Source: a bacterium
GTDB taxonomy: Bacteria; SZUA-182; DTGQ01
Reading direction: 5' to 3'
Length of the DNA stretch: 23,195 nt
Assembly: GCA_040755755.1 (NCBI GenBank)
Contig: JBFLZW010000071.1
Location: forward strand, 1-23,195
Position numbers and translations under genes: made by a program. Under the pieces are notes generated by a model. The model saw only the letters and a list, made by a program, of their open reading frames with translations, was not told the DNA's origin and did not search any database. Positions 1,919 through 20,100 of the stretch are shown here, in pieces. Within the stretch, counting starts at the first letter, position 1. Every line of letters starts with the position of its first letter.

Positions 1919-3451
1919 ATGAGAAAAATCTCTCTGAGTATTATCTTGATTACTTTGATTGGGTATTTTCCCTTTTTGTTTTCGTCTCTTTGCCAAGCAG
2001 CCGATAGTGAAGAGCTGAATAAACCTGCCGTGAAATTCAGTAAAGAAACCCATCGGTGTTTGGGATGTCACCAGAATGTTACTCCCGGAATAGTGCATGA
2101 CTGGGAAACGAGTTTACATTCACAAACAACTCCTTCTCAGGCATTTTTGAAAACAGAACTGGAAAGAAGAATATCCGCCAAATCGGTACAAGACGAACTG
2201 TCGAAGATAGCGGTTGGATGTTACGAATGCCACAGCCAGAATCAGGATAAGCATCCTGATAGTTTTACCCATTTTGGCATTAAAATTAATGTCGTCGTCA
2301 GCCCGAACGATTGCGCGGTTTGTCATCCTGTTGAGGCGAAAGAATATAGTTCCAGCAAGAAGGCATTTGCCTTCAGCAACCTGGAGAAGAATCCTGTTTA
2401 CAAGGCGCTGGTTGACACGGTTATTGGATTAAAAGAGGTCAACAAAGGGGCGGTAGCCGGCGGATCAAAACCATCGGACCATACCCGGAGTGAAACCTGC
2501 TATGGATGTCATGGAACTGAAGTAAAAGTGATTAGAGAGAAAGGAATTTTTAAGGAAAAATTCAACGTTACTGTCCCTGATTTATCCAACTGGCCAAATC
2601 AGGGTGTCGGGAGAATAAATCCTGACGGCAGCAGAGGCTCATGCAGCTCATGCCATCCCCGGCACAGTTTTTCTCTGCAAACGGCCAGAAAACCTGATAC
2701 CTGTGCTCAGTGCCATCTTGAGCCGGATGTACCTGCCTGGAATGTTTACAAGGAAAGTAAGCATGCCAATATCTACAGTTCGCACGAGAAGAGCTGGAAT
2801 TTTAAGAATGTGCCATGGGTATTGGGAGAAGATTTCACCTCACCGACTTGCAGCGCCTGTCACAGCAGTTTAGTAACTGATTCCCGTGGAAATGTTGTTG
2901 TCACGCGAACTCATGATTTCGGGGCCAGACTATGGGTAAGAATATTTGGCCTTGTCTACTCCCATGCTCAGCCAAGATCAGGAGAAACCCATATTATCAG
3001 GAATAAGGATGGGCTGCCGCTTCCCACAAATTTTGGAGGGGAACCGGCAGAATCATTTTTAATTGATCAGAAAGAACAGACCAGGCGGATCGCCAATCTC
3101 AGTTCGCTCTGTATTTCATGTCATAGTACGAGCTGGACAGAAAAACACTTCGACAAGCTTAATTCCACGATAGTCGAGACAGACCGGATGGTGAAAAGTG
3201 CTACCCTGTTACTGGTCAATGCCTGGGAAGAAAATTTGGCTGATAAAACCAATCCCTTCGATGAAGTAATAGAATCTCGATGGATAACGCAGTGGTTGTT
3301 TTATGGAAATTCTATCCGGTATGCTTCAGCCATGAGCGGGGCTCCGGATTATGCAACTTTCAAAAATGGCTGGTGGAATATGACGACGAACCTCAAGGAG
3401 ATGGAAGAATGGATAAAAGTGCACCGGCTTTTAAAGAATAAAGTAAGATAA
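1919..3451 (+). CDS. Octahaem cytochrome c, hydroxylamine oxidoreductase (HAO) family
   Basis: The 510-residue protein has an N-terminal Sec signal peptide (res ~1-27, ending CQA) and eight CxxCH haem sites at C47, C101, C132, C194, C242, C262, C311 and C398. It therefore acts outside the cytoplasmic membrane. The stretch WPNQGVGRINPDGS (225-238), followed by CSSCHPRHSF, ARKPDTCAQCH and YKESKHA, is a strong HAO-family pattern. HAO-like proteins oxidise hydroxylamine or, in the epsilon-type group, reduce nitrite or hydroxylamine; which applies here cannot be told. After haem 6 the family usually reads G-P-D-H, giving the distal Asp-His pair; here it is E-P-D270-V271, so the His appears replaced. 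I could not place the P460 cross-linking Tyr. No quinol dehydrogenase or small cytochrome partner is next to it. GAGGG at 1906-1910 sits 8 nt before the ATG. Alternatives such as octahaem nitrite/tetrathionate reductase fit less well. Confidence 0.84.
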   Translation: MRKISLSIILITLIGYFPFLFSSLCQAADSEELNKPAVKFSKETHRCLGCHQNVTPGIVHDWETSLHSQTTPSQAFLKTELERRISAKSVQDELSKIAVGCYECHSQNQDKHPDSFTHFGIKINVVVSPNDCAVCHPVEAKEYSSSKKAFAFSNLEKNPVYKALVDTVIGLKEVNKGAVAGGSKPSDHTRSETCYGCHGTEVKVIREKGIFKEKFNVTVPDLSNWPNQGVGRINPDGSRGSCSSCHPRHSFSLQTARKPDTCAQCHLEPDVPAWNVYKESKHANIYSSHEKSWNFKNVPWVLGEDFTSPTCSACHSSLVTDSRGNVVVTRTHDFGARLWVRIFGLVYSHAQPRSGETHIIRNKDGLPLPTNFGGEPAESFLIDQKEQTRRIANLSSLCISCHSTSWTEKHFDKLNSTIVETDRMVKSATLLLVNAWEENLADKTNPFDEVIESRWITQWLFYGNSIRYASAMSGAPDYATFKNGWWNMTTNLKEMEEWIKVHRLLKNKVR

Positions 3452-3518: not shown

Positions 3519-3594
3519 TGGTGGAGCTGATGGGATTCGAACCCACGGCCTTTTGACTGCCAGTCAAACGCGCTCCCAACTGCGCCACAGCCCC
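3519..3594 (-). tRNA. tRNA-Ala (anticodon GGC), CCA encoded
   Basis: A complete 76-nt cloverleaf can be folded on the minus strand. The acceptor stem is GGGGCTG with CAGCTCC. The D arm is GCGC/GCGC. The anticodon arm is TTTGA-CTGGCAG-TCAAA with anticodon GGC. The T arm contains TTCGAAT. The discriminator is A and a genomic CCA end is present. The third acceptor pair is G3-U70, the universal alanine identity element, which confirms the amino acid. It reads the GCC/GCU codons. Confidence 0.97.
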
Positions 3595-3726: not shown

Positions 3727-5118
3727 TTAAGACTTCGGCTTATAAATTTCCTTCGTACTGAACCATTCATCATGGTAAAATGAAATGGAAGTCTCAAGGC
3801 GAGCGAGTGCAATATCCAGATCAGCCACAGCACCGATATACTCGGTGTATACCCTGGCCAATTCAGTCTCCATTTCGGTTATATCTATCGGCTTGGCCTT
3901 CCCTTCCGAGAATTTATCTCTAACCGTATCCAGTCTGCATTCAGCAGCCGCAAGCTTTTTTTCCTGTGCCTGTATCAACTTCTCCTTCTCTTTAACTGTC
4001 ATCCAGGCCTCTTCAACTTCTGTCATAATCGCTCTTTGGAGTTGCTCATGCTTATATCTGAGGCCGTCTCTCACAGCCTTTGCCCGGATAACCTCTGCCC
4101 GTGTCTGCCCCCATTCGAAGAGTGACCAATCCATCCAGGCACTCACTATCACGACCTGAGGTCTGTCTATCCTGGTTTCTTTCTGAAGATTGTAACTTCC
4201 TTTCAGGGAAATATGAGGATAAAATCCGCTTTCTTCCAGTTTAATGTTCTCTTCCGCTGACTTGACTCTTAACAGAGAGATCGCTAACTCCTCTCTATTC
4301 CTCCGGGCAGCTTCTTTAACCTCCTGGAGAGATGCGGTCAAAGATCCATTGAGAAGCCTTCCCTGGAGAGAGATTTCATCACCCTCCTGACTCTCCTGAT
4401 CTTTTTGCCCTCCTTGCGCTTCCTGATAGACCATGAGCTCTTTTAACCTGCGAAGGGCCAGATTTTTCCTGTTCCTGGTTTGATAGCAGTCAAGCTCGGC
4501 AAAGGCTAAATCAGCCTCAACCTGCAATATGTCTTCTTTCGGTATATATCCTTCGGTGTATTGTTCCTGCAAAATAGTAATCCTTGCCTTTTTTGATTCG
4601 AGTAGCTTTTCCTGAGTTTCCAGGCAATATTGCTCTCTCAATACCTGGTAATAGCTCTTTTTGACGTCAAGAACAAGCAATTGCTGCTGCTTTTCAATCT
4701 CGTACCGTGCTTCCTGGCTCATGAGCTTTGATCTTTTGAGAGAGTGGGTTAGATACCCGCCGGTAAACACAGGCTGTTCAAGAACCAGATTGACGCCGTA
4801 GGTATTTTGGTTTTCAGTGGAAAATTTAACATTTTCGGGCGGAATTCCCGGTCCAAAGACATGGCGTTCAAACAGGAAATAGTCAGACCTGTCACGAAAC
4901 GAGTATCCTCCCTGGAGTCTCATCGACGGCAAAAATTCCGTACGGGAAATCTTTACCTCCTGGCTTTTTGAGAAGGCATCCATCCCGTACGCCTTCAGAT
5001 CATTATTGTTTTTCAAGGCGAGTTGAATACAATCCTGCAGGGTCAGCTCGATCGGGCATGCATCGGTTATGAAAACCAATAAGGCTATTACAGCAATGGA
5101 AAGAACTATTTTCTTCAT
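3727..5118 (-). CDS. TolC-type outer-membrane efflux channel
   Basis: The 463-residue protein belongs to the outer membrane factor family, whose trimers form a beta-barrel plus alpha-barrel exit duct. It has an N-terminal hydrophobic export signal (res ~1-21, ending near TDAC). It has the usual first-domain opening LTLQDCIQLALKNNNDL and a second family repeat with EELAISLLRVKSAEENIKLEESGFYP. Long coiled-coil helices rich in Glu, Lys and Gln run through both halves. Length is normal for the family. A cysteine follows the signal, but TDAC is a poor lipobox, so lipid modification is doubtful. The start codon overlaps the stop codon of the adaptor gene by 4 nt (ATGA), so translation is coupled. 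As last gene of the exporter operon it is presumably the dedicated outlet for the adaptor/ATPase/permease, unlike heterocyst DevBCA, which uses an unlinked TolC. Confidence 0.92.
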   Translation of the reverse strand: MKKIVLSIAVIALLVFITDACPIELTLQDCIQLALKNNNDLKAYGMDAFSKSQEVKISRTEFLPSMRLQGGYSFRDRSDYFLFERHVFGPGIPPENVKFSTENQNTYGVNLVLEQPVFTGGYLTHSLKRSKLMSQEARYEIEKQQQLLVLDVKKSYYQVLREQYCLETQEKLLESKKARITILQEQYTEGYIPKEDILQVEADLAFAELDCYQTRNRKNLALRRLKELMVYQEAQGGQKDQESQEGDEISLQGRLLNGSLTASLQEVKEAARRNREELAISLLRVKSAEENIKLEESGFYPHISLKGSYNLQKETRIDRPQVVIVSAWMDWSLFEWGQTRAEVIRAKAVRDGLRYKHEQLQRAIMTEVEEAWMTVKEKEKLIQAQEKKLAAAECRLDTVRDKFSEGKAKPIDITEMETELARVYTEYIGAVADLDIALARLETSISFYHDEWFSTKEIYKPKS

Positions 5119-6143
5119 TTCAGGAATCTCACGGTTACGGTCATGCCATTCTTAAGCCCGGAAGGATCGTCCAATCGGGCATATATATCCTGAGCCTTGA
5201 CATCATAGGTTGCACCTGGATCAAAAGTCCTCAAAGAATGCCTTTTTAAAACAGGAAACAACTTATAAACCTTTCCCGGATATTCCCTGCCGGGGTAGGC
5301 ATCGGTAGAGACTGCTACTCTCTGTCCTGCCGTCACTTTACCGATATCGGCTTCTTCAAGTTCGGCCCGTATTCTCAACCTGTCCGGATTTATGAGCTTC
5401 ATCAGTGGAGTGCCGGGATTTACGATCTCCCCCGCATCCTGATATTGTTCGGCGACAAGTCCATCTATGGGGGAGATGATAGTATAATCTTCCAGCAATG
5501 CCTGATAATAACTCAATTCCGAGTTGGCTTTTTCAACCGCGGACCTGGCCTGCTCGATCTCTTCATCCCGTGTCCCTTTCAGAAGCTTTTTGAGGTCAGC
5601 CCTGGATACGGCAAAATTGGCAGCAGCTACCTGCATCTCTTCTTCCGCCTTCTCAAGGGCTACCAGCGTGGTCGCTTCCTTCTGATAGAGTCTTTTCTGC
5701 CTTTCATACTCTTTCCGGGCCTTTTCGGAGATGATTCGTGTACGCTCCGCATTGCTTTCGGCCATCTCGATGTCTTCCTTCCGGGAGCCTGTCTCAAGCT
5801 CTCTCAGGCGTGCTCTGGCCTCGTTCAGCATCGCCTCTGCCAGTTTGATCCTGGTAATGATTTTCTGATTATCGAGGATTATCAGAATCTGGCCCTTCCT
5901 GACCCTGTCTCCTTCATGAACCCTGACCTCTGAGATGCTGCCGGCAACCAGGTTGCTCACCTCAATTTCTTCCTCACTTTCCACGATACCCTTGGCAGCA
6001 ACGGTTTCATCCTTGCCTTTTGCATCCACGACCCTTTCCGTAACCACGTTCTTTTCCAGCAGTCTCGGACTGATTATGGCCAGGCCGACAGCCAGAACAG
6101 ACAGACCGGCGAGAATCATGATGCCGAAGCGGCTATTTTTCAT
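5115..6143 (-). CDS. Periplasmic adaptor, HlyD/DevB family
   Basis: The 342-residue membrane fusion protein is anchored by one N-terminal transmembrane segment (res ~7-26) and bridges the inner-membrane ABC transporter to the TolC-type channel. The order of parts is typical. The first half of the lipoyl domain contains GSISEVRVHEGDRVRKGQIL. A long Ala/Glu/Arg-rich coiled-coil hairpin follows (about res 95-215). Next comes the second lipoyl half (YTIISPIDGLVAEQYQDAGE) and then a beta-barrel region ending in KNGMTVTVRF. The ATG overlaps the end of the ATPase gene by 11 nt and has its own AGGAGG (6148-6153), four nt upstream. Its stop overlaps the start of the channel gene. The coiled coil and the neighbouring DevC-type permease favour the DevB subgroup over drug-efflux AcrA types. 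The substrate cannot be read from the sequence. Confidence 0.9.
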   Translation of the reverse strand: MKNSRFGIMILAGLSVLAVGLAIISPRLLEKNVVTERVVDAKGKDETVAAKGIVESEEEIEVSNLVAGSISEVRVHEGDRVRKGQILIILDNQKIITRIKLAEAMLNEARARLRELETGSRKEDIEMAESNAERTRIISEKARKEYERQKRLYQKEATTLVALEKAEEEMQVAAANFAVSRADLKKLLKGTRDEEIEQARSAVEKANSELSYYQALLEDYTIISPIDGLVAEQYQDAGEIVNPGTPLMKLINPDRLRIRAELEEADIGKVTAGQRVAVSTDAYPGREYPGKVYKLFPVLKRHSLRTFDPGATYDVKAQDIYARLDDPSGLKNGMTVTVRFLK

Positions 6144-6831
6144 GGTGCCTCCTCTTGTCTTCGACTATTTTTCCGTCTTCCATAATCAGGATCCGCTCAA
6201 AGAGAGTATCCAGCCTTCCGTCATGCGTTGCCACGACAACGCACTTCTTTTGTTCCGTGGCGATCTTTTTCAGGATCTCCATAATCCTCCTTCCGTTTGC
6301 AAAATCAAGATTAGCAGTAGGCTCATCAGCAAGAATGATCGGTGAATCGGCAGCCAAAGCCCTGGCCACAGATACCCGCTGTTTCTGCCCGCCGCTCAGA
6401 TCGCGGGGAAGAAAATGCATTCTTTCTGACAGGCCGACATCTGAAAGTAAACCCTGAGCCCTCGCATCTGCCTGTGCACCCTTCATTCCCTTTAAATGAA
6501 TTACCAAAAGGACATTTTCAAAGGCTGTCAGGGCCGGAAAAAGGTTGAATCCCTGAAAAATAAAGGAGAGATATCTTCGTCTGATCTGCGAAAGCTCTGA
6601 CTCCTTCAGGCAGGTAATGTCTGTGCCGTAGATTTGAAGAGACCCCTCCGTGGGACGCAGTATACAGCCAAGCATCGAAAGGAGAGTTGTTTTTCCACTG
6701 CCCGAAGGACCGAAAAGACCGATCACTTCACCCTCGTACAACTGAAGGTTCACTGATGAAACAGCAGTGACTTTATTCGATCCTTCAGTATAAACTTTCG
6801 TCAGGTTGGCTGAGGTTATACTCATCTTCAT
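6133..6831 (-). CDS. ABC transporter ATPase, DevA/MacB/LolD type
   Basis: This 232-residue nucleotide-binding subunit has every catalytic motif. Walker A is GPSGSGKTT (res 41-49), the Q-loop is at Q93 (FIFQGFNL), the signature is LSGGQ (145-149), Walker B is IILADEP (165-171), and the H-loop His is at H203. The LADEPTANLD pattern and short length place it in the MacB/LolD/DevA/FtsE group, which powers type VII-like mechanotransmitter permeases of the FtsX fold. It lies 17 nt downstream of the permease gene and overlaps the adaptor gene, so the three are one unit. Two ATG codons are close together (6831 and 6825); the first is used here, and a GA-rich stretch upstream could serve either. Expected to form a cytoplasmic dimer on the permease. 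Confidence 0.95.
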   Translation of the reverse strand: MKMSITSANLTKVYTEGSNKVTAVSSVNLQLYEGEVIGLFGPSGSGKTTLLSMLGCILRPTEGSLQIYGTDITCLKESELSQIRRRYLSFIFQGFNLFPALTAFENVLLVIHLKGMKGAQADARAQGLLSDVGLSERMHFLPRDLSGGQKQRVSVARALAADSPIILADEPTANLDFANGRRIMEILKKIATEQKKCVVVATHDGRLDTLFERILIMEDGKIVEDKRRHHEK

Positions 6832-6848
6832 CTCTTCTCATCCCTTCT

Positions 6849-7976
6849 CTAATCCCTGAAAAGTATTGCCGGGTCTATTTTTTTCACTTTTCTTACGGAA
6901 ATAAAAGCCGAAGAGAGGCACATGAAAAGGGTCAGCACAAACATCAGCATGTTTACCCATACCTTTACGGCCACGACCAGGTCCAGAGCTTCATAAATCT
7001 TCAGGGAAGCCAGGGTAAGTCCGAGGCTCAACAGGTATCCCAGGATTGCATTAATGAGTGCCTGGGAAAATATTATCCGGTAGATATCCGAATTATCCGC
7101 TCCCAGAGCCTTGAGCGTGCCAAATTCTCTGATATGCTCAATAGTGGAATTGTAGATGGTCTGACCCACGATGAGGATGCCGATGGAAAGGCTGATGAGG
7201 ATAGACATAAAGAAGGCAAATCCCGCGCCGGTTTCAATAGTCCAATACATTCGGGTCCTTCTGCTGAAGTCCCATTTCGAATAGATATCGACCCCTTTGA
7301 GCCGCCTTTTCAGGTTCTGAATCACCTCATCCACGGAATACCCGGGCAGGGCTTTGGCTATGATGAAAACGGTACTGTCAGGACCGAGCATGCCAACCAG
7401 CTTTTGCGCATACTGGTAAGAAGTAAAGATGATCGGAGCGGTAGTGACCGATTTGACTCCCTGGGATATACCGGCGATCTGAAGCCGCCTCCAGAGTACT
7501 TCCCGATAATCTCCGACTTGTGTCTGCCCGATTCTTTTCATGGCCGATTCATCTACTATGGCAAAATTGCCATTCTTGACCGCTTCTGCACACCCGGCCT
7601 TCATCTTCCATGGACCTCCAACACCGGTGTCGGGATTATAACCGACTATCTCCACCTGCTCGGTGCCCCCTTGTTTTTGCTTGATAACTCCCCAGGTAAC
7701 AATCAGGTTCTCAGCCCATTGGACACCCTCCGTGGATAGGACCTGATAATAAAGGTATTCCGGAATGGGTTGAGAAAAGTCAAAATTCCTGATATTTTTG
7801 GAAGTAACCCATATATCGCCGGGAGCATGGTCGATGATGGTCGATGATGTCTCCATTGAGCCAATGAAAATACCAATCTGAGCAAAGATAAGGCTTATGG
7901 CAAACACAATGCCAAGAAGAGTAATAAAAGACCTTACCTTGTTATAGAGCATAATTTTGAGTGCAACATAAAACAT
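6849..7976 (-). CDS. ABC transporter permease, DevC / FtsX-fold family
   Basis: The 375-residue inner-membrane protein has one N-terminal transmembrane segment (about res 13-36), a large periplasmic domain, and three C-terminal transmembrane segments in the last ~125 residues, the FtsX/MacB layout. The start of the periplasmic domain, PGDIWVTSKNIRNFDFSQPIPE, matches the DevC subgroup of heterocyst glycolipid exporters as I know it, more than MacB or LolC/E. A coupling-helix-like segment (IREFGTLKALGADNSDIYR) lies between TM2 and TM3, as expected for contact with the ATPase. The start at 7976 has no strong ribosome binding site. A 135-bp gap (7977-8111) separates it from the cyclase-like gene upstream. 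That gap contains a small palindrome, TCTGATTCATCAGA (7996-8009), and no convincing promoter or terminator, so co-transcription is possible. Confidence 0.9.
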   Translation of the reverse strand: MFYVALKIMLYNKVRSFITLLGIVFAISLIFAQIGIFIGSMETSSTIIDHAPGDIWVTSKNIRNFDFSQPIPEYLYYQVLSTEGVQWAENLIVTWGVIKQKQGGTEQVEIVGYNPDTGVGGPWKMKAGCAEAVKNGNFAIVDESAMKRIGQTQVGDYREVLWRRLQIAGISQGVKSVTTAPIIFTSYQYAQKLVGMLGPDSTVFIIAKALPGYSVDEVIQNLKRRLKGVDIYSKWDFSRRTRMYWTIETGAGFAFFMSILISLSIGILIVGQTIYNSTIEHIREFGTLKALGADNSDIYRIIFSQALINAILGYLLSLGLTLASLKIYEALDLVVAVKVWVNMLMFVLTLFMCLSSAFISVRKVKKIDPAILFRD

Positions 7977-8111
7977 AATGGCGAGTATCCGGCAATCTGA
8001 TTCATCAGACTAAGGTTTCATCATAACCTGCCCTTTTCCCCTGGCGACAGGTACTATAATTGATCGGCGGTCTCCTCTGCTCATAGCTATAAGTAAAGAG
8101 GGAGAAAATCG

Positions 8112-10139
8112 CTACTCTCCATTACTGGCCCGCGCCTCTACCAGATTCAGGAATTTTGCCAGGGTATGGAGAGGTAAATAGGTAGAAGATAATTCATAAT
8201 TTCCCCACGTATAGCCCACCAGCATGGTCCCTAAATATTCCTCGTCTCTCCACGACCCGTCCGGAAGCATGGTATTGATAAGATATTCGATGCCCCTTCT
8301 TACCTGCGGGCTCGATACCTCTCCAGCGGCAAGAAGGCCATCGAGCACATGGGCTGTCTGCACGGCGGTACTTTCCCCCACTCCGATATAGTTCGGATCA
8401 AAATAGGAATCCGCGCTTTCACCCCATCCCCCATCGGCGTTCTGTACGCTTTTCAGCCACTTGATTGCTCTTCGAATGTAAGGCTGTGCCGGATTTTCAC
8501 CAGCGGCCGCAAGCCCTTGAAGCACCTGGCCGGTGCCGTACGTACAATTTACTCCCCATCTGCCTTCCCAATAGCCGGGAGGTTTCTGTTGGCTCTTGAT
8601 AAAACCGATGGCTTTGGAGATCACAGCCGACCAATCTTTTTGTTTCTGATATCCCAGATTCCCGAGCGCTAAGATCACGCGGGAAGTTACATCAGCATTA
8701 CTCCAGTCGAAAAAGAAGGTCATATTGACATCAAGGAAATCAAAAATGAGACCTCCTTCCGGGTTCTGAGCATCTAAAGGATGAATCGTATTTTTGTCAA
8801 ACGAAGCCCATCCTCCATCGGCATTCTGCATGGATATTACCCAATCGACGCCGCGGTGTACGGAATCTCTGATGGCCGTCAGATTCTGGTCGTCGAGCAT
8901 AGAAAAAGCATTCAGGACGATTGCCGTATCATCATTGTCCGGCATCCAGGTGTTATCATGTTCGATTCCCCATCCGCCCGGTTTCCCTTCCGGATTATTA
9001 TGATACCATTCACCATAAATCATGCTTTGCCTGGAGAGCAGGTAAGCGACTGCTTTTTTCACCGCAGGGTGTTCGGACTCTATTCCGGCTGCAAGTAAGG
9101 CTTGTAAAGTATAACCCGTGTCCATTATCGGAGATTGGCAAAATGGCTGGTAGATCATGGTATCGGTTTCTTCCTGAATCAGAACTATTCCTTCCATGCC
9201 TTTTTCAATCACCCCTTGAAAAGATGGATCCCGCGTGGACTTCAGAGCCATTACACTGAGCATAGTGTTCATGGCTATACCAAACCAGTTCCCATCCACC
9301 TCCTGCCTTTCGAGAAGATAGTCCAATGCCTCCTGCTGTTTTCCCCCTTTCTTCGGGGGAATCTCAATCACACCTTCCTTCGGGTCTTTGATGAAAATTT
9401 CCCTGATTCCTCGCTCTTCAGGCACTCGAATCTTATAGTAGTTTTCGTATAGGACCATTAACGGGATCAGGCACGTGTGCGCATACCCTATCCGGTAGAG
9501 GAATTCTTCATGAACAAGCGCATCGGTGTTTGCCTGGATCATTTCATTCCAGGGCACCTGATCGAAGAGGGCTAAAAAAACTTTGATTTCTTTTTGTACC
9601 GACTCAGCCCCGCCCTGAGCGAGAATGAACTGCCTGGCCCTGACCATTCTTTCATCATCCGCACTGAGGCCAGCCAATTTCAAGGCCAGGTAATTGTCAA
9701 CCGCAAGAAAAAGCACACTTGCTCCCCCTGGATACATACTCCACCCGCCATCGGCCTGCTGCTCTGCAAGGATGTAGTTAACCGCCTTCTGCTGTCTCAC
9801 CTCATCTACCATACCCAGGTAATGCATTGTCATGATGTAATACGCGGTAAAGGAGGTATCGGTCTTTAACGGACCCCGCCAATACCCTTCCGGTGCCTGC
9901 CGGGAGAGAAGGTAATTTACCCCCCGGTTCATGGCTTCGCGGACATGGTGATAGTTTTTACCAATGATTTTACCATCAGCGCCGGTGGTTATTCCTTGCC
10001 CGGAAATACCATCATGGCCCCAAATCATCGTTTTCTCCTCAATGTCCAGGCTATTGAAAAGAGCCGTTTCCCGGGTTTTACAGCTCGATAATACCAGGAA
10101 ACTTATCAGTAAAAGAGCCAAGCTCAATCTTCGATCCAT
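8112..10139 (-). CDS. Squalene-hopene-cyclase-family protein, predicted lipoprotein
   Basis: The start at 10139 is preferred over the upstream in-frame ATG at 10280. AGGAGG sits 8 nt before it, and it gives a textbook 20-residue lipoprotein signal: MDRR, then a hydrophobic core, then the lipobox L-S-S-C20. The 675-residue product follows class II triterpene cyclases along its whole length. QW-type repeats end at W87, W133, W285, W444, W524 and W572. The acid motif D401-N-D-D404-T-A is intact, and RWGVNCTYGTG (527-537) matches the family's WGVNYxYGTx with Cys for Tyr. Known squalene-hopene cyclases are cytoplasmic-face monotopic enzymes without export signals, so a lipidated version would act in the periplasm or at the outer membrane. 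Residues ~21-65 are an added linker. It heads the minus-strand exporter operon. Activity on squalene or another polyprenyl/polyketide substrate is unknown. Family confidence is high, function moderate. Confidence 0.85.
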   Translation of the reverse strand: MDRRLSLALLLISFLVLSSCKTRETALFNSLDIEEKTMIWGHDGISGQGITTGADGKIIGKNYHHVREAMNRGVNYLLSRQAPEGYWRGPLKTDTSFTAYYIMTMHYLGMVDEVRQQKAVNYILAEQQADGGWSMYPGGASVLFLAVDNYLALKLAGLSADDERMVRARQFILAQGGAESVQKEIKVFLALFDQVPWNEMIQANTDALVHEEFLYRIGYAHTCLIPLMVLYENYYKIRVPEERGIREIFIKDPKEGVIEIPPKKGGKQQEALDYLLERQEVDGNWFGIAMNTMLSVMALKSTRDPSFQGVIEKGMEGIVLIQEETDTMIYQPFCQSPIMDTGYTLQALLAAGIESEHPAVKKAVAYLLSRQSMIYGEWYHNNPEGKPGGWGIEHDNTWMPDNDDTAIVLNAFSMLDDQNLTAIRDSVHRGVDWVISMQNADGGWASFDKNTIHPLDAQNPEGGLIFDFLDVNMTFFFDWSNADVTSRVILALGNLGYQKQKDWSAVISKAIGFIKSQQKPPGYWEGRWGVNCTYGTGQVLQGLAAAGENPAQPYIRRAIKWLKSVQNADGGWGESADSYFDPNYIGVGESTAVQTAHVLDGLLAAGEVSSPQVRRGIEYLINTMLPDGSWRDEEYLGTMLVGYTWGNYELSSTYLPLHTLAKFLNLVEARASNGE

Positions 10140-10147
10140 TTTGTAAT

Positions 10148-10153
10148 CCTCCT
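10148..10153 (-). promoter_or_regulatory. Ribosome binding site fixing the cyclase-like start
   Basis: CCTCCT on the plus strand is AGGAGG on the coding strand, 8 nt before the ATG at 10139. It is the main reason to start the protein at the lipoprotein signal rather than 47 codons upstream at 10280, where no such site is evident. Confidence 0.8.
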
Positions 10154-10202
10154 TGATTTCCCTAACCTGACCTCTTCCTAGGATCGGTAAAAAAAACAAA
10201 AA

Positions 10203-10230
10203 AATATACAAAGCCGGAACGCTTATACAA
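10203..10230 (-). promoter_or_regulatory. Possible promoter of the cyclase-exporter operon
   Basis: On the minus strand TTGTAT (10225-10230) and TATATT (10203-10208) are 16 nt apart, about 65 nt upstream of the preferred ATG. The surroundings are strongly AT-rich. The match is moderate and no operator is recognised. If used, the alternative upstream start at 10280 could not be transcribed from it. Confidence 0.35.
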
Positions 10231-10289
10231 CGAAGAAAAAATTTTCTTTCTATGCTGTACAGATGACTAATTCTTATCAAAATTCACGA

Positions 10290-10295
10290 TATAAT
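10290..10295 (+). promoter_or_regulatory. Possible -10 element of the PKS operon
   Basis: A perfect TATAAT lies about 110 nt before the start of the AT-ER gene. The hexamer 17 nt upstream (CTAATT, 10267-10272) is a poor -35, so an activator or another sigma factor may be needed. It lies in the 265-bp divergent region (10140-10404) shared with the cyclase operon. No other gene is seen there. Confidence 0.3.
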
Positions 10296-10390
10296 CATGT
10301 AACCGAAATTGTATCTTAAAACCAAATTACTGTCTGAGAGTGGAATATACAGAACCGGGGGTACCCCAGGCCAAGAAATCGCAACAATAG

Positions 10391-10397
10391 AGAGAGG
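10391..10397 (+). promoter_or_regulatory. Ribosome binding site fixing the AT-ER start
   Basis: AGAGAGG lies 7 nt before the ATG at 10405, directly ahead of the conserved AT opening [12 protein letters not shown]. The in-frame ATG at 10309 would add 32 residues without family similarity and has no such site. Confidence 0.65.
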
Positions 10398-10404
10398 CAA
10401 GAAA

Positions 10405-12711
10405 ATGGCAACATTTGTATTTCCAGGGCAAGGTTCGCAAAAGAAAGGCATGGGGGATGGGCTTTTCAATGACTTTCGAGAGCTCACTTCACAAGCGGAT
10501 ACTGTTTTAGGCTATTCTATCGAGGAGTTGTGCATCCAGGATGCCGGCGGGCATTTGGGTCAAACTGATTATACCCAGCCGGCCCTGTATGTAGTCAATG
10601 CCTTTACTTATCTGAAAAAAATTGCACTTTTGAGCCGAAAGCCGGACTTTGTTGCCGGTCACAGCCTGGGAGAGTATAACGCTCTTCTGGCGGCAGAGGT
10701 TTTTGACTTTGAGACCGGCCTGCGGCTGGTGAAAAAGCGAGGCGAATTAATGAGCCGGGCTCTTGGCGGGGGAATGGCTGCGGTAATTGGCCTGACCGAC
10801 AAAAGAGTGGAGGAACTGCTCAGGGAAAACCATTGCGATACCCTCGCTATTGCAAACTATAACGCACCGTCTCAAGTTGTGATTTCCGGCCCCAAGGCCG
10901 AGATCGATCAAGCCGGATCGATTTTTGAAGCTGCCGGTGCACGGGCTTATATTCCTTTGCGGGTAAGCGGGGCTTTTCATTCTCAATTCATGGAAGAGGC
11001 CAGGGAGAATTTTTTCAGCTTTCTGGAAGAGTTTGAATTTTCCGGGCCGAAAATACCGGTTATCTCCAATGTTACGGCCAGGCCATATACAAAAGAAGAC
11101 ATCAGGCAGCTGCTGGCTGATCAGATTACCCATCCGGTCAAATGGACGGCGTGCATCCGCTATCTGCTCGGACAGGGAGAGACGGAGTTTGAGGAGATCG
11201 GTCCGGGGACCGTATTGACCGGCCTGATCCAGCAGATAAAAAAAGAAGCTCAGCCTCTTGGGGAGGCCGGTCAGCAGGAGAGACGGGAGAAACAAAAGAC
11301 AAAACAGGCCAGAGCGGAAGAAGTCTGGCCGAAAATCACCGCCGCCTCTTTAGGCAGTGAGGAGTTCAAGCAGGACTATAACGTCAGGTATGCCTATGTC
11401 ACCGGCGGGATGTACCGGGGAATAGCCTCGAAAGAGCTGGTAGTGAGAATGGGGAAAGCAGGATTGATGGGCTATTTTGGCACCGGCGGCCTGGACCCTG
11501 GTCAGATAGAAGCAGCTATTCACTATATCCAGCGGGAGCTGAAAGACGGGCAAGCCTACGGAATGAATTTACTCTCCAATATCATCAATCCGAACGTGGA
11601 AGAGGAAACGATAGATTTATTTTTACGGCATGGGGTGAAGAATGTCGAGGCAGCAGCCTTTATGCAGATCACCCCGCCGTTGGTAAAATACCGGCTGAAA
11701 GGGCTCAGCCGGGATGCCGGGGGTAACATTGCCATCACCCACAGAGTACAGGCCAAGGTATCACGGCCTGAAGTGGCCCGGGCTTTTTTGAGTCCGGCCC
11801 CTGAACATATCGTACGAAAGCTTCTGGCCGAGAACAAGATTACCCGGGAACAAGCGGACCTGTCCACCAAAGTGCCTATGGCCGATGACCTGTGCGTAGA
11901 GGCTGACTCCGGCGGGCATACGGACCAGGGGGTAGCCTATGTCCTGATGCCAGCCATGATGAGGTTGCGGGATGAGCTGATGGATACCTACAAGTATCCC
12001 AGACGAGTGAGAGTCGGTGCCGCCGGGGGAATCGGCACACCGGAAGCGGTTATGGCAGCTTTTATGTTAGGCGCGGATTTTATCCTTACCGGATCTGTCA
12101 ATCAATGCACCGTCGAGGCTGGAACCAGTGGAGCGGTCAAGGATTTATTGCAGCAGATAAATGTCCAGGATACCGATTATGCACCGGCAGGAGATATGTT
12201 CGAATTAGGAGCCAAGGTTCAGGTTCTGAAAAAAGGGGTATTTTTTCCCGCCAGAGCGAACAAGCTGTATGAGCTGTATCGCCAGTACAATTCCCTGGAT
12301 GAAATAGATGAAAAAACAAAAAAGCAGATTCAGGAAAAATATTTTCAGCGAAGCTTTGAAGACATCTATAAGGAAACCAAAGCCTATTTTTCACAACACT
12401 ACCCCCAGGAGATCGAAAAAGCGGAACGAAACCCCAAGCATAAGATGGCCCTGGTCTTCCGATGGTATTTTGGACACACCACGCATCTGGCTTTGAGCGG
12501 CAGTGAAGAGCAGAAGGTGGATTATCAGGTACACTGCGGCCCTGCTTTGGGTGCTTTCAACCAATGGGTCAAAGGAACGCCTCTTGAAAACTGGAGTAAC
12601 CGGCATGTAGATGAAATTGCTGAAAAACTCATGCAGGAAGCAGCAGAGCTGCTCAATCATCGCTTTCAATCGCTTTTCAAGAGATCATCGTATCCGGGGG
12701 AGGCTCGATAG
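10405..12711 (+). CDS. Discrete acyltransferase - PfaD-type enoyl reductase fusion (trans-AT PKS)
   Basis: The 768-residue protein has the layout and size of PksE-type AT-ER proteins that serve trans-AT polyketide synthases. The N-terminal AT (about res 1-300) has FPGQGSQ, the nucleophile motif GHSLGE and the GAFHS histidine motif, so it should load malonyl units onto all ACPs of the system. A charged linker (~300-335) leads to the PfaD-like, FMN-dependent TIM-barrel enoyl reductase (~335-768). The ER has [16 protein letters not shown], the flavin-site EADSGGHTD and [11 protein letters not shown]. It would reduce selected double bonds in trans. It is first in the plus-strand operon, 30 nt before the ketosynthase gene, and divergent from the cyclase-like gene. 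The 10405 start is chosen from its ribosome binding site and the family N-terminus. Family assignment is firm; which modules use the ER is unknown. Confidence 0.93.
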
Positions 12712-12722
12712 GCACCAGGAAG

Positions 12723-12742
12723 AGGAGTAATAAGGAGTAATA
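12723..12742 (+). repeat. Tandem duplication of a 10-nt Shine-Dalgarno unit
   Basis: AGGAGTAATA occurs twice back to back (12723-12732 and 12733-12742), ending in the A of the ketosynthase ATG. The second AGGAG is only 4 nt from the start codon and the first is 14 nt away, so neither is at the ideal distance. Confidence 0.7.
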
Positions 12743-14142
12743 TGGTTTGGATACGGGAAGGGGAAGGCAGTAATGAAGCTCAAAGCATTGGGCTCAAGAT
12801 ACGTACGGCAGGGAAAGCACAAGGAAAGGTGAAAGGAAAGAAGGGGGAGAGAAGAAGAGATGTTGCAGTTATCGGGATGGCTTGCCGGTTTCCCGAAGCC
12901 AGGGACTACCATGAATTCGGTGATAATCTCCTTCGGGGGATCAATTCCATCCGGGAGATTCCTCCTGAGCGATGGGATATCAACAAGTATTATTCTCCCG
13001 ATATCGAGGAACCGAATAAAAGCGTCAGCAAGTGGTGCGGGCTCCTGGATGCCCCTGATCAATTCGATCACCACTTTTTTGCTGTCTCTCCACGGGAAGC
13101 CAGGAGCATGGATCCCCAGCAGAGACTGCTCCTTCAGGAAACCTGGCATTGCATAGAAGACTCAGGGGTCCCCCTGGCAAGTCTCCAGGAGAAGAGGACA
13201 TCGGTATATGTCGGCGTTATGGCCAATGACTATTGTCAACAGGCTATGACCAGGAATCTGGTTATTGACGGCTATGCCTGTCTGGGCAGCTATGATTGCA
13301 TGCTGGCCAACAGAATCTCGTATGTGTTCGGCTTGCGGGGTGAAAGCATATCGGTCGGGGCCGCCTGCGCCTCCTCATCGGTGGCGATCCACCAGGCCAG
13401 GCGTTCTTTGATAACCGGGGAAAGTGATTACGCCCTGGCCGCAGGGGTGAGTCTGGACCTTCATCCGTGGAAATATATCTCTTTTTCCAAATCGCGGATG
13501 CTCAGTCCGGACGGGCAATGTAAAACCTTTGATAAGGACGCCAACGGGTATGTGCCGGGGGAGGGAGCAGGAGTTCTGCTGTTGCAGCCTCTGGAGGAAG
13601 CGATCCGTGCCGGAAACCATATCCATGGAATAATCAGAGGTTCGGCAGTCAATCATGGCGGACAGGCATCATCGATCACTGCGCCACGGGTCAGAGCGCA
13701 AAGGGATGTCATTCTGGCTGCCTATGCGGATGCCCGGCTCAGTCCGGAGGCAGTGAGCTATGTGGAAGCACACGGGACCGGTACTTCACTGGGTGATCCG
13801 ATCGAGATAGAGGCCCTGACGCAGGCATTCCGGGTTTATACGGACCGGAAACAATTCTGCAAAATCGGCTCGGTCAAAACCAACATCGGGCATCTGGAAG
13901 CTGCGGCAGGAATCGCGGGTGTTATCAAGGTGCTGGTTATGATGAACCGGGGCAAGATACCCAAGACGTTAAATATCAAGATATTGAACCCTATTATCAA
14001 TTTTGGGGAATCTCCCTTTATGGTAGCTGACAGCCTGAGTGATTGGCCGGGGAGGGAGAAGGGTCTGGCCATCCGGGCCGGTGTCAGCTCATTTGGCATG
14101 GGAGGGGTAAACTCCCACATCGTGCTGGAATCTTTCTGGTGA
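12742..14142 (+). CDS. Stand-alone ketosynthase (first KS of the trans-AT PKS)
   Basis: The 466-residue protein is a single beta-ketoacyl synthase domain (res ~39-466) behind a basic 38-residue leader. It catalyses Claisen condensation of a thioester with a malonyl-ACP extender. The triad is complete: C209, H344 (EAHGTGTS) and H384 (NIGHLE). The nucleophile motif reads GAACASSS rather than the usual DTACSSS, which may mean unusual substrate or starter use. The protein stops right after the last KS strand (GMGGVNSHIVLESFW), without the KS-to-AT linker that normally follows. That linker is found at the beginning of the next gene, in a frame shifted by one nt. So this is either a true split module or a broken single gene. 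Alternative starts exist, because the leader has no family similarity. It lies between the AT-ER gene (30 nt) and the giant PKS gene (19 nt). Confidence 0.9.
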   Translation: MVWIREGEGSNEAQSIGLKIRTAGKAQGKVKGKKGERRRDVAVIGMACRFPEARDYHEFGDNLLRGINSIREIPPERWDINKYYSPDIEEPNKSVSKWCGLLDAPDQFDHHFFAVSPREARSMDPQQRLLLQETWHCIEDSGVPLASLQEKRTSVYVGVMANDYCQQAMTRNLVIDGYACLGSYDCMLANRISYVFGLRGESISVGAACASSSVAIHQARRSLITGESDYALAAGVSLDLHPWKYISFSKSRMLSPDGQCKTFDKDANGYVPGEGAGVLLLQPLEEAIRAGNHIHGIIRGSAVNHGGQASSITAPRVRAQRDVILAAYADARLSPEAVSYVEAHGTGTSLGDPIEIEALTQAFRVYTDRKQFCKIGSVKTNIGHLEAAAGIAGVIKVLVMMNRGKIPKTLNIKILNPIINFGESPFMVADSLSDWPGREKGLAIRAGVSSFGMGGVNSHIVLESFW

Positions 14143-14161: not shown

Positions 14162-17100
14162 ATGAAATCAGAGCGCAGCAAATCGAAAATCAACCAGGTC
14201 ACGGGCTCGGACCCGTCCCGGGAGGGATGCACCAGTCATCCCTTTATCCTTTCTGCCGGATCCAGCCAGAGTCTGGAGGGCTTGATTGCCAGGTGGAAGG
14301 CTTTTGTTCGAAGCCCCGAATACGCCAGAGCCCAGCTCCAGGATATCTGTGCCACCCTGATGACCGGAAGGGAGCCTTTTTCGTATCGATGCGGTTGTCT
14401 GGTAGCCAGCAAAGAGGAGATAGAGGCGTTTCTTACCAAAGTCATCCTCCCTGTTTCCAAGTGCAGCACACCAAAATGGTGCCTTCGGATCGGCAGGTTC
14501 TCATGGACCGGTTTCGAGAAGGTCCGTCCGCTCTTTGCCCTCAGAGACTGCGGATTCATTCCTGCCCTGATAACCGGAGAGAGTACCGGCCTAATTTTGA
14601 GCCTGGCTGCCAGTGGCATGGTGAAGTTAGACGATGCCCTGGCCATGCTCAAAAAGTCAAAGCCAAAGCAGCTTGATCATCTTGAGCTTACCCGTCCCGG
14701 TTGTCCATTTTACGACCCCCTTGCCGGACAAACCATTCAGCCTTTCCTGATGAGTGAGTCCTACATCCGCTTCCTGGTCGATGGATATGACCTGCCGCAC
14801 GAGGTATCTCAATCCTCGGTGAATAAGGCCAGACTTTTAAAGGAATGCCAGTTCACCTTCAAAAAGTTTCTGGCAGACTGGGACCTTGTGCTGAAAAAAT
14901 CGGGGCTGGAAATCGGGCAGATGCTCTTTGACGATGAGCTTCTCTCACCGGCATCCGGGGAAGAATTCAGAAAGAAAAGACTGCTCCTTCTTTCGGCTGT
15001 CATGAGCTGCCTGCTCAAGCTTGATCAAAAATGGAGCTTAACGCCGCCAAAGCAGGCAGGCGAGCCACGGTTTTATGAACTCGTGGATCTTATTCTCGAT
15101 GAGGTACTGCCCAAAGAGGCAGTGGTGGAAATTTTCCTAAGCCAGGAGCCGGATTTTGCCAGGATAAGCCGGATACTCAACCAGCGGCAATCCTCTCTGG
15201 ATTTACGCAAGCCCTATACCTGTCTCAGAGAGCGCAATCAAGGTCTTACTGAAATTGCCGATCCGTATGACTGGCTGAATAAAGCTCTGGACATAAAGCC
15301 CCGGGTACCTGGTGTCGGTGAAGATTTTGTCTTTCTGGAATTCGGGGAATTGAGCGAACCCGCTCCCCCAAATCGTTCCGTCATCATGGACCTGTCATTG
15401 AATCCAGGGGAGAGCTTCAGGCTGACCCTGCTCCAGTTGTGGCTGCACGGGGCTTCGATAGCATGGCCGAGGCTCTATCCTGAAGGGACGTTTGGCAAAG
15501 TACCGCTGCCTGCCTATGACTTTGACCGGAAATCCTTCTGGCTGTCTGATAAACCCCCTGAGCAGGATAACCTTATGGATGCAGCCGGGCCTCATACCCG
15601 GCAGGTTTATTACCATAAGCCGACCTGGGTCCGGCAGGCTCCGCCGGTTTTGAATCAGGATGGAAGCAGGCGTGCTGCTCTTGTATTTATCAATGACCAT
15701 CCTCTGGAAAAGTCATTAGCAAAGCAGACAGCCAAGGCATACCGCAAGGTTTTTTCCATTCAGCAGGGGCCTTCTTTTGTCCGGAAAGGGCCGGACTCCT
15801 TCGAGATCATGGCCCAAAGAGAGCATGATTATTCGGAGGTCATGGGCCTGATAGCCGGAGAGATGGACGAGGGAATCGAGGGTTACGATATCCTGTATTT
15901 ATGGTCTTACGAGTCTGAAGCCACGCCTGCGAATGACGAGAAGGAGCTTGCAGAAAAACAGGAAAAAGGGGTGCAGGGTCTCTTTTTCCTGGCCAGGGCC
16001 CTGACCCGCCTCAAGATAAAGACTTCGATAAAGGTGGTGATCGCTACCTGCCAGAGCCAGGTGGTCAGACCGCAGGACAGGGGAGAAGGATATGGTTACG
16101 GTGGCCTTTTAGGCCTGGCCAGGACCATAGGGCTGGAAAATCCCAGGGTAAAAACAGCCATTATGGATTTTGCCGCCGGGGAGCTTGCCGCAGATGAGAT
16201 GGCCGCGATCCTGGTGAGAGAGGCAATGTCCCCACAATCCGCAGGTATGGTGGCCTTCCGCGGTAAAGATCGATATCAGTGGACGATTGAGCCAGTCTCC
16301 CTGGCACAGGAGGAGCACGGTGAATTTCTCCTGAAGGATAAGGGGGTCTATCTGCTTATTGGGGGCGCAGGCGGCATCGGCCTGAAAATAGCTGAGATGA
16401 TCACCCGAAAGGTCAGAGCGCGGCTGGTTCTGGCGGGAAGGTCGGAGCTGGATTCCCTGAGGCGGGAAAAGCTTGTGCAGCTTCAAAGCAGGGGGAGTGA
16501 GGTTCTTTACTTATCAGGGGACGCGGCCAGCCGGAAGGACATGAAAACCATACTCAGGACCATCAAAGAACGCTACGGTGAGCTTCATGGGGTGATCCAT
16601 GCCGGAGGAGTTCTGGAAGACAGGCTCCTGCTGAATAAGGACTGGCCATCCTTCCAGCGGGTGATGTCCCCCAAAGTGCAGGGGACCTGGATCATAAACC
16701 AGCTCACCCGCAAAGAACCGCTCGATTTCTTTGTGGTTTTCTCTTCCGTGGCATCTGTTCTGGGCAATCAGGGGCAGGCGGACTATGCAGCGGCCAACAG
16801 CTTTATGGATGCCTTTATTCAGTATCGAAGCCGCAATAATTTTCCGGGCAAAAGCCTCAGTATCAACTGGACGCTCTGGGCTGATGGGGGAATGGGGAAA
16901 AATCCTTCGGCAGTCAGGGCCTTTGCCGGAAAAACAGGGATCATTGACAGCCAGGCAGCCTCAATGGCCTTTAGTCAACTCCTTCATGGGCTGCAGGGCC
17001 AGTATATTGTCGCTGCAAATCCCGATTGTTTTCCGATAGAGAAGGAAAAAGTGTCCCCTTCACGCATAGCTGTGGGCCTGCCATATTCAGACCTTCAGAA

Positions 17101-20100
17101 CACTCTGGCAGAGCTTTTGGCTGCTGTCCTGCACCTTGATCCGAAGGAGCTGGATAAGGAAACTGACCTCCGGGAGTTTGGCCTGGACTCTCTTTCCCTG
17201 ACTGAATATGCAGAGCGGATCAAGGCCAGACTGGGTGTCGATATGAATGCCGCCCTGCTCTTTGAGTATACGACTATCAGGGATATTTCAGATTATTTGC
17301 ACGGGCAGTGCGTACCTCAGCCAGCAGGTGCTTGTTCCGAACGGGATAACCAGGAGAAAGAGGTGAGGGAGGCCGCTCCTCAGGACATTGCGATTATCGG
17401 TATGAGCGGCCGCTTCCCTGGTTCCCGGAACCTTTCCGATTTCTGGAAAAACCTCAGTGAAGGACGGGATTGTATTTCCGAAGTGCCGGCCGACCGCTGG
17501 AGATGGGAGGAGTATTTTGGCGATCCCCGAAGAGATGAGGATAAAACGGATTCCAAGTGGGGCGGTTTTTTGGATGATATTCGATCTTTCGATGCCGGAT
17601 TTTTCGGCATTTCACCCCGGGAGGCAGAGCTCATGGACCCTCAGCAGCGACTTCTGCTGGAAGAGTCCTGGCATGCCATAGAAGATGCCGGCTATCCGCC
17701 CTCAGCTCTCTCCGGCACGAGGACCGGCGTATTTATCGGTGTCTGCAACGATGACTATAACGAACTGGTGCTGAAAAGCGGAGTCAGGCTGGATGCGTAT
17801 ACCTCTACCGGCTCCTACTTTTCCCTGATCCCGAACCGGATCTCATACTTCCTGAATATCCACGGGCCGAGCGTAGCTGTCGATACGGCCTGCTCAAGCT
17901 CTCTGGTAGCCATTCATCAGGCCATTCAGGCCATCAATAACCGGGACTGCGTAATGGCTTTGGCAGGAGGAGTAAACATCTGCTGCACTCCCCGCCGGCA
18001 TATCTCCTTCAGTCATGCTGGCATGCTGTCCAGCGACGGACGCTGCAAGACCTTTGACAAAAAGGCCAATGGATACGTCAGAGGCGAGGGAGTCGGGATT
18101 ATCTTCCTGAAGCCTTTGGAAAAAGCGAGAGAGGACAACGATCATATTTATGGAGTCATCAGGGGAAGCGCGGTGAATCATGGCGGCCTTTCAAACTCCC
18201 TCACAGCTCCAAATCCCAATGCTCAGGCAGAGCTGCTCATCAGCGCCTATGAGAAAGCCAAGGTTGACCCTGCTTCGATAACCTTTATCGAAGCTCATGG
18301 GACCGGCACCAGTCTTGGAGATCCCATCGAGATCAACGGCTTGAAGAAGGCTTTTGAGGAGCTTTATAAAAGGTGGAATAAGCCGCAACCGGAGAAAGCC
18401 CATTGCGGGTTGGGTTCGGTGAAGACGAATATCGGCCACCTTGAACCGGCAGCAGGGATAGCCAGTGTCATCAAGGTGTTACTGTCGATGAAGCATGGAA
18501 TGCTTCCTGCCACCCTCCACTTTGATGAGCTTAACCCGTATATTCAGCTTGAAGGAAGCCCCTTCTATATCATCAAAGAGAACCTGTCCTGGAAGAACCT
18601 GAGCACTGATGACGGAAAGACAATACCACGGCGGGCGGGAGTCAGTTCTTTTGGCATTGGAGGGGTCAATGCTCACATGGTGCTCGAAGAGTATCTTCCT
18701 CCTGTTTCGCAACGAAACCGGGTGGAGCGGGATGAGCCGATTCGAAACCCGCAGATCATTGTGCTCTCAGCCAAAAATGAGGAAAGGCTGAAGGCTTATG
18801 CCGAGCAGATGCTGGTTTTCTTAACAACTCCTCCTGCCTCCGGTTCATCAGATGAACCTATCAACCTATCTGACCTTGCCTATACCCTGCAGGTTGGCCG
18901 GGAAGCTCTCGAGGAGCGCCTGGCACTTTTGGTATCGAGCCGGGAGGAATTGCTGGAAAAGCTCAGCCAATACTGTCAGGGTAAATTAGCCGTCAGGGAC
19001 ATCTATACGGGGAATATAAAAGCAACCAGGGCTAAAGTAGGACATCTGGTGACCGGAAAAGCGGGCAGAGAGTTTGTTGCAGAGATCATTCGTGATAAAG
19101 ATTTCTCCACCCTGATCCAGCTTTGGGTATTGGGGGTGGAAATAGACTGGAAGCTCCTGTATCAGGGCTCCCTGCCAAACCGCATCCCTCTTCCCCTCTA
19201 TCCGTTCGCTCAGGAAAAATACTGGATTCCAGCTTCCGGCACAAGCCCGGCAGAGGGCGGCCTCCGGCCCCTCCCGGATAAGCCCGATAGCCCGGGGCAG
19301 ATAGCCAGGCTCCATCCCCTGCTCGATAAAAACGTTTCCACCCTGCGGGAGCAAAGGTTTTCAACCATGCTGGCGGGTGATGAATTTTTCCTGGCAGATC
19401 ATGTGGTAGACGAGCAGAAGATATTGCCGGGAGCAGCCTACCTTGAAATGGCCAGAGCAGCAGGTGAGCTGAGTGGAGAAAAGAGGGTCCGCAAGCTGGA
19501 AAACATAGTCTGGGTACGGCCGATCAGTCTGTCCGGAGCGCCGCAGGAAATGCACATCAGCCTCTATCCGAATCAGGATCGGCCCGATCGCCAGAATAAG
19601 GTCGAGTATGAGGTGAGCACAACTGACGAGTGCAATCAAAGAATAGTGCACGCCCAGGGGAAGCTGGTCTATGAAGACCCTTCCGGCATCGATGCTGCGC
19701 CCGGCTTTCATGAAGCCAGCTATCCCTTGACTATCGATATCAAAGCTATCAGGGAACGGTGCCGGACTTCGATGGGAATCGCAGAGTGTTATCAGGCATT
19801 CCAAGCCAGAGGGGTGAAGTATGGCCCAAGCTTTCGGGCCATCAGGGAACTGTTCTCCAATGGAAAGGAAGCCCTGTCATATCTTGAGCTGCCGGCAAAC
19901 TTAAAACCCGAATCCGCGGAATTTACCCTGCATCCTGTTTTAATGGATGGAGCGCTGCAAACAGCAGCGGCACTCATGAGAAGCAGGGAAGCCGGACCGG
20001 ATAACACCTACCTTCCTTTTGCTCTGGGTGAGGTAGAGATCTTACGCCCCCTGCCCCAGGCATGCTATGTACATGTAACAGAAGAGAATCAGCACCTGAC

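Follow-up and report, generated by a model that had tools for sequence, protein, structure and literature searches.

Squalene-hopene cyclases (SHCs) are regarded as monotopic enzymes whose squalene comes from the inner membrane and is taken up on the cytoplasmic side. Within this family, the closest described comparison for the protein reported here is the SHC of Alicyclobacillus acidocaldarius (1SQC/2SQC), and precedents for SHC relatives that use non-squalene chains are found, among the PDB matches, in MstE and the drimenyl diphosphate synthases, which are single- or double-domain class II terpene cyclases of the same toroid fold family and in which, to our knowledge, no lipoprotein signal is known. 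On the export side, DevBCA-TolC (HgdD) has a role in heterocyst glycolipid export (PMC6161253), and MacB-type pumps export small molecules and antibiotics, according to a review (PMC5985334). Here we analyze a locus in which a cyclase-like gene and a tripartite exporter lie next to a trans-acyltransferase polyketide synthase (trans-AT PKS). It occupies contig C71 (JBFLZW010000071.1), taken over its entire 23,195 nucleotides and called the window below, of a 5.26-Mb bacterial genome in 88 contigs that is 97.6% complete. The main find is a clade of SHC-family proteins that are predicted to be exported as lipoproteins.

The genes named in the initial annotation (a cyclase-like lipoprotein, a permease, an ATPase, an adaptor and TolC, with a divergent trans-AT PKS) are all open and recognised, and the family assignments are not due to chance, the E-values at the locus lying between ~1e-15, for the FtsX domain of the permease, and 1e-224, for the PfaD domain. 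The cyclase start is corrected here, from the sequence, to the ATG at position 10139. A mechanical listing of open reading frames (ORFs) opens this gene upstream, at TTG 10280, and a perfect AGGAGG lies a few bases upstream of ATG 10139. From this ATG, the N-terminus reads MDRRLSLALLLISFLVLSSC, followed by KT, which is a lipoprotein signal by pattern. The two features concerned are:

8112-10139, minus strand: SHC-family protein, putative lipoprotein (TIGR01507 470.4 bits, cut-off 431.1; fold Z 47.2 to 2sqc_A)
10080-10139, minus strand: predicted lipoprotein signal peptide with lipobox Cys20 (MDRRLSLALLLISFLVLSSC; from the sequence and a PROSITE-type lipobox pattern)

The same lipoprotein pattern finds a lipobox in exactly three of 47 SHC-like proteins, the window protein and two relatives from other genomes (G189:C78 and G386:C137), and the lipobox together with n- and h-regions is present in these three and in none of the 44 others. 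It is highly improbable that the window protein is an ordinary SHC facing the cytoplasm whose start was mis-assigned: the upstream opening of the mechanical ORF would allow it, but the perfect AGGAGG stands at ATG 10139, the lipobox recurs near the start of the two relatives at 43-47% identity, and beginning at the TTG would bring in a second hydrophobic segment and would still not yield an ordinary SHC N-terminus. Lipidation and a periplasmic or outer-membrane location are thus predicted for the cyclase from its N-terminal sequence.

To place this protein among its relatives, a census with PF13249 over 386 genomes plus named loci gave 45 distinct SHC-like proteins, a single one of which carries a lipobox and a hydrophobic leader. 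This protein, G189:C78, shares 45% identity with that of the window across the cyclase part. Searching the seven-genome phylum of G189 gave the second relative, G386:C137, which is 55% identical to the G189 protein; both genomes belong to another phylum than the window genome. In a 52-protein tree, the three lipobox SHCs group together as one clade (support 100/100, stem length 1.32 changes per site), and a profile built from these three members and run over the 386 genomes scores the two relatives at 1240-1260 bits, the next best match reaching 449. No SHC was found in the other genomes of the class, which was sampled with nine genomes including that of the window; the sample contained no further class of the same phylum. 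A contig scan with the cyclase alone as query gave no match, and with the two-member alignment it gave just ordinary SHCs or fragments at 28-34%, without signal. A literature search of open-licence papers returned nothing relevant on an exported SHC or on an SHC with a trans-AT PKS. The lipoprotein SHC clade is therefore a rare and deep branch of a known family. A protein on contig C23 that weakly matches the cyclase, and two weak ketosynthase-like genes on C24, were considered and appear unrelated to the locus. Another well-supported group of SHC-like proteins, from several families (L014, L015, L016, L131 and L133; 666-835 amino acids), lacks the DXDD acid motif and has no obvious signal.

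The window protein aligns with both domains of the A. acidocaldarius enzyme, and the SHC equivalog cut-off that it passes is also passed by its relatives (461.6 and 467.3 bits). An AlphaFold2 model, built with the window protein and six named relatives only as input (mean pLDDT 77.3), matches 2SQC (2sqc_A) with Z 47.2 at 2.5 Å over 585 residues and 35% identity, i.e. the double alpha-barrel over the whole length. MstE and the drimenyl diphosphate synthases match the model less well (Z 29-34), and after the terpene cyclases the next structural matches are toroid sugar enzymes. The acid motif is retained as DNDDT (residues 401-405), as are W417, D447, W489, Y495 and Y609. Besides the lipoprotein signal, the difference from the A. 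acidocaldarius SHC lies in the pocket, which we compared, in Alicyclobacillus SHC numbering, with 35 ordinary full-length SHCs. The window protein has W312M and Y612S at positions where all 35 keep W and Y, respectively; F601L, F365I, P263M and G600M where 33 of the 35 keep the usual residue; and F605T where 32 do. L607 of the Alicyclobacillus SHC is G in the window protein. Note that W312 and F601 are replaced, by M and L, in all three clade members, and Y612 in the two that were compared with ordinary SHCs. In engineered AacSHC, positions 600, 601, 605, 607 and 261 govern substrate and product (PMC11165016). H451R, E366 and F420 were dropped from the list of pocket changes, the same residues being present in 27, 28 and 33 of the 35 ordinary SHCs.

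Squalene supply was assessed with PF00494 (squalene/phytoene synthase), for which no match was found in the window genome, in the eight others of its class, or in the two genomes with the relatives, G189 and G386. Two polyprenyl synthases are present in the window genome. The absence of PF00494 was rejected as a strong argument after a control, in which the same search also failed for 10 of the 29 genomes that have an ordinary SHC; because of these, it is weak evidence, compatible with a non-squalene substrate and not proof of one. The ordinary-SHC genomes concerned (e.g. G317, G376, G237, G233, G158 and G096) may have another squalene route or substrate.

The exporter genes follow the cyclase gene, which is co-directional with the permease gene and 135 bp upstream of it, so that the order of transcription on the minus strand is cyclase-like gene, permease, ATPase, adaptor, TolC. 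They are tightly packed, at spacings of 17, -11 and -4 bp, with the adaptor gene overlapping its neighbours by 4 and 11 bp:

6849-7976, minus strand: DevC/MacB-type permease (PF12704 and PF02687; TIGR01185 devC 109 bits, cut-off 290.35)
6133-6831, minus strand: DevA/LolD/MacB-type ABC ATPase (PF00005; top NCBIfam model TIGR02982 DevA, 217.8 bits, cut-off 295.8)
5115-6143, minus strand: HlyD/DevB-type periplasmic adaptor (PF13437 and PF16576; TIGR02971 DevB 83.9 bits, cut-off 129)
3727-5118, minus strand: TolC-family outer-membrane channel, final gene of the exporter operon (PF02321 E 1.7e-61; TIGR01844 129 bits, under the cut-off of 225)

PF12704, PF02687, PF00005, PF13437 and PF02321 together make up a MacB-type tripartite set. 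With DevBCA-TolC, the exporter shares the arrangement of a DevB-like adaptor, a DevA-like ATPase and a DevC-like permease as separate genes, plus TolC; it differs in that all three subunits score under the Dev cut-offs, TolC lies inside the operon and the PKS next to it is no glycolipid synthase. With MacAB-TolC, it shares the MacB periplasmic core and FtsX permease fold, the HlyD-type adaptor and TolC, whereas ATPase and permease are separate here and fused in MacB, and no equivalog cut-off is reached. Among 145 genomes searched, close relatives of the permease (72-75% identity, one of them a fragment) occur only in two genomes, both of the same bacterial family, other relatives being at most 33% identical over most of the length. 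In one of the two (G003:C253), an acyl carrier protein (ACP) gene and a true FabF lie divergently from the permease-ATPase-adaptor set; that genome has a second exporter copy (G003:C201), with ACP-like and malonyltransferase-like genes running divergently from it. In the other (G002:C49), the permease start is preceded by a UbiA-like prenyltransferase (NF010118, 1.7e-17, below cut-off) and a 449-residue protein without assignment. With that of the window, exporter loci beside acyl-carrier, ketide or prenyl genes thus number four in three genomes. Neither an SHC nor a modular PKS was found beside the exporter homologues at these three other loci, and the neighbours of more distant exporter relatives (G005, G053 and G125) have no similarity to the window PKS genes. 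Because the 72-75% homologues adjoin ACP and FabF, ACP and acyltransferase (AT), or UbiA-like prenyltransferase genes, we infer that the exporter, a DevC/MacB-type pump, likely has an acyl or lipid substrate.

Across a divergent region, for which 265 bp had been given and which measures a closely similar 262 bp from ATG to ATG, the plus strand carries the PKS:

10140-10401, no strand: divergent intergenic region between cyclase and PKS (bounded by the ATG positions of the flanking genes)
10402-12711, plus strand: trans-acting malonyltransferase (FabD) fused to a PfaD-type enoyl reductase (ER) (TIGR02814 745 bits, cut-off 449; TIGR00128 365 bits, cut-off 261)
12742-14142, plus strand: free-standing ketosynthase (KS), active-site motif AACASS (PF00109 1.6e-87)
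14162-23195, plus strand: multimodular PKS, (linker)-KR-ACP / KS-DH-KR-ACP / KS..., without integrated AT, open at the contig end (domain searches; KR, ketoreductase; DH, dehydratase)

Promoter-like matches in the divergent region do not exceed the level of shuffled DNA. The last 63 bases of C71 (23133-23195) are identical to the start of C74 and to that of reversed C62, therefore the assembly broke, at k-mer length, at near-identical ketosynthases and the PKS continues on other contigs. On C62 and C56, DH-KR ends are followed by methyltransferase-ACP-KS starts, with two methyltransferase domains in all, and C74 carries KS-DH-ACP, KS-ACP-DH-KR-ACP, KS-ACP and an alpha/beta-hydrolase thioesterase, then a carboxyl-methyltransferase-like gene. 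PF00698 (AT) is absent from every PKS module protein in the window and on the continuation contigs, the AT-ER protein being separate. Like described trans-AT PKSs with an AT-ER, the window PKS combines a free AT-PfaD ER, KS-linker-DH/KR-ACP modules without AT, split modules and a terminal thioesterase, and it lies within their normal variation; it is a modular trans-AT assembly line. From the observed domain order, it probably releases one partly methyl-branched, partly unsaturated acid. In TIGR02813, the model for PfaA-like KS-AT-ACP synthases (HglE/PfaA type), the window AT-ER and free-standing KS are far below cut-off, and the large PKS has no AT. The proposed analogy with heterocyst glycolipids is therefore weak, on account of both this modular, non-HglE-type line and the exporter subunits that stay under the DevA, DevB and DevC cut-offs.

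A PfaA-type synthase is present elsewhere in the window genome, on C36, where TIGR02813 passes its cut-off with 1262.8 bits. This polyunsaturated fatty acid (PUFA)- or glycolipid-like synthase consists of two large proteins (L052:3062-17294), with similar large frames in G001, G002 and G003. It is a nearer analogue of glycolipid and PUFA synthases than the window PKS, and a lipid synthase of the PfaA type may be a conserved feature of this bacterial family. A second trans-AT-type cluster lies on C50 (L054:7535-11718 and L092:1064-3377) and on G003:C372 (L091), with a KS, a KR-ACP-thioester reductase, a GMC oxidoreductase, and separate AT and PfaD. In G003 the reductase and the GMC oxidoreductase are separate genes; on C50 the former reads in frame into the middle of the latter, suggestive of a deletion or of a join made in assembly.

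We take the locus to hold three things that would not necessarily form one system. The tripartite DevC/MacB-type exporter, which has a TolC of its own and is specific to this bacterial family, would most likely carry a lipid of acyl or polyketide type through the envelope. The modular trans-AT line, with its trans-acting AT-ER protein and its continuation on other contigs, would probably release a branched, partly unsaturated acid. The SHC-family lipoprotein, after export and lipidation, would be periplasmic and probably held at the outer membrane, and its most likely role would be the protonation and cyclisation of a non-squalene prenyl or polyene chain outside the cytoplasm. In this protein DXDD is intact but the pocket is remodelled at positions that set substrate and product in known SHCs; the chain may be one that the neighbouring exporter delivers. 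An extracytoplasmic, non-squalene class II cyclase beside a lipid-type exporter is thus the reading that we tentatively favor, noting that the likelihoods we attach to it and to the three alternatives below overlap in part. A narrower form, in which the cyclase sits at the inner face of the outer membrane and acts on a chain delivered by the ABC-TolC exporter, possibly the methyl-branched polyene of the adjacent PKS and not an isoprenoid, seems to us quite improbable. Several observations weigh against the favored reading. The last Asp of DXDD is lost in both relatives (DVDV and DVDC, versus DNDD in the window protein), and therefore catalysis may not be the common function of the clade. The relatives show no linkage to exporter or PKS genes: neither kind was found beside the G189 or G386 cyclase in the DNA stretches available, where by eye the first, on a contig of only 3.7 kb, has a nitroreductase-like frame beside it and the second lies within a glycolysis run (GAPDH, PGK and TPI). 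The case for lipidation rests on the pattern, the ribosome-binding site and conservation. Exporter loci are few, two of the four being at contig edges; the FabF and ACP at G003:C253 may be a primary fatty-acid pair; and no upstream sequence is common to the exporter operons above the level of shuffled sequence. The control on PF00494 counts on the same side.

The broken motif in two of the three clade members, together with the W312 and F601 replacements in all three and that of Y612 in the two compared, would also fit a protein that is no longer a cyclase, its alpha/alpha toroid binding a lipid or glycan or serving as a scaffold at the outer membrane; the toroid sugar enzymes that come next among the structural matches point the same way. 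We consider this unlikely, since the window protein retains DXDD, W417, D447, W489, Y495 and Y609, a set that relaxed selection would not favor, and scores over the SHC equivalog cut-off. As for the exporter, it could be an ordinary pump that serves self-protection against, or export of, an antibiotic-like polyketide of the trans-AT line, with the cyclase-like lipoprotein an unrelated neighbour. The substrates given for MacB-type pumps in the review cited above, subunit scores that fit MacB about as well as DevA, and a modular, thioesterase-terminated PKS speak for such a pump, which we nevertheless place on the unlikely side: the 72-75% exporters of the sister genomes have no modular trans-AT PKS beside them and are accompanied by ACP, FabF, AT or prenyltransferase genes, company that suggests an older lipid role. 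The initial annotation went further and joined everything into one candidate lipid system, in which a lipid-like polyketide from the PKS would pass through the exporter and be modified by the lipoprotein cyclase once at the outer membrane. The co-directional cyclase gene just upstream of the exporter, the PKS divergent across 262 bp, the acyl-synthesis genes adjoining exporter homologues, and the tailoring methyl domains and thioesterase on the PKS contigs all agree with this. Comparing neighbourhoods across genomes, however, the four-part arrangement was found in the window genome only, an outcome that the annotation itself had named as one that would refute it; exporter homologues stand without SHC or modular PKS, the cyclase relatives stand away from exporter and PKS in the available DNA, and the PKS is not of HglE type. 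One joint system is thus distinctly unlikely. The link of the exporter with acyl or polyketide genes is supported, and the cyclase as a member of a conserved unit does not withstand the test that the annotation had set.

An SHC lineage with a lipoprotein signal, with DXDD retained in one or more members and with no detected squalene synthase, would imply either that polycyclic lipids can be finished in the outer envelope or that the fold has been reused there for another purpose. Either outcome is testable on a single expressible domain. The repeated company of the exporter, made up of ACP, KS, AT or prenyltransferase genes, offers a way to approach its substrate, in a lineage that is uncultured.

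At the left end of the window, positions 1919-3451 encode a multihaem cytochrome of the hydroxylamine/hydrazine-dehydrogenase type (NF052343, under cut-off), with no homologue in the same-genus genome and homologues at 67% in G004 and 48% in G006. A tRNA-Ala(GGC) with a terminator-like stem lies at 3519-3594, just past the 3' end of the exporter operon. The GC fraction is ~0.43 to the left of this tRNA and 0.47-0.53 to its right, which marks a possible island edge.

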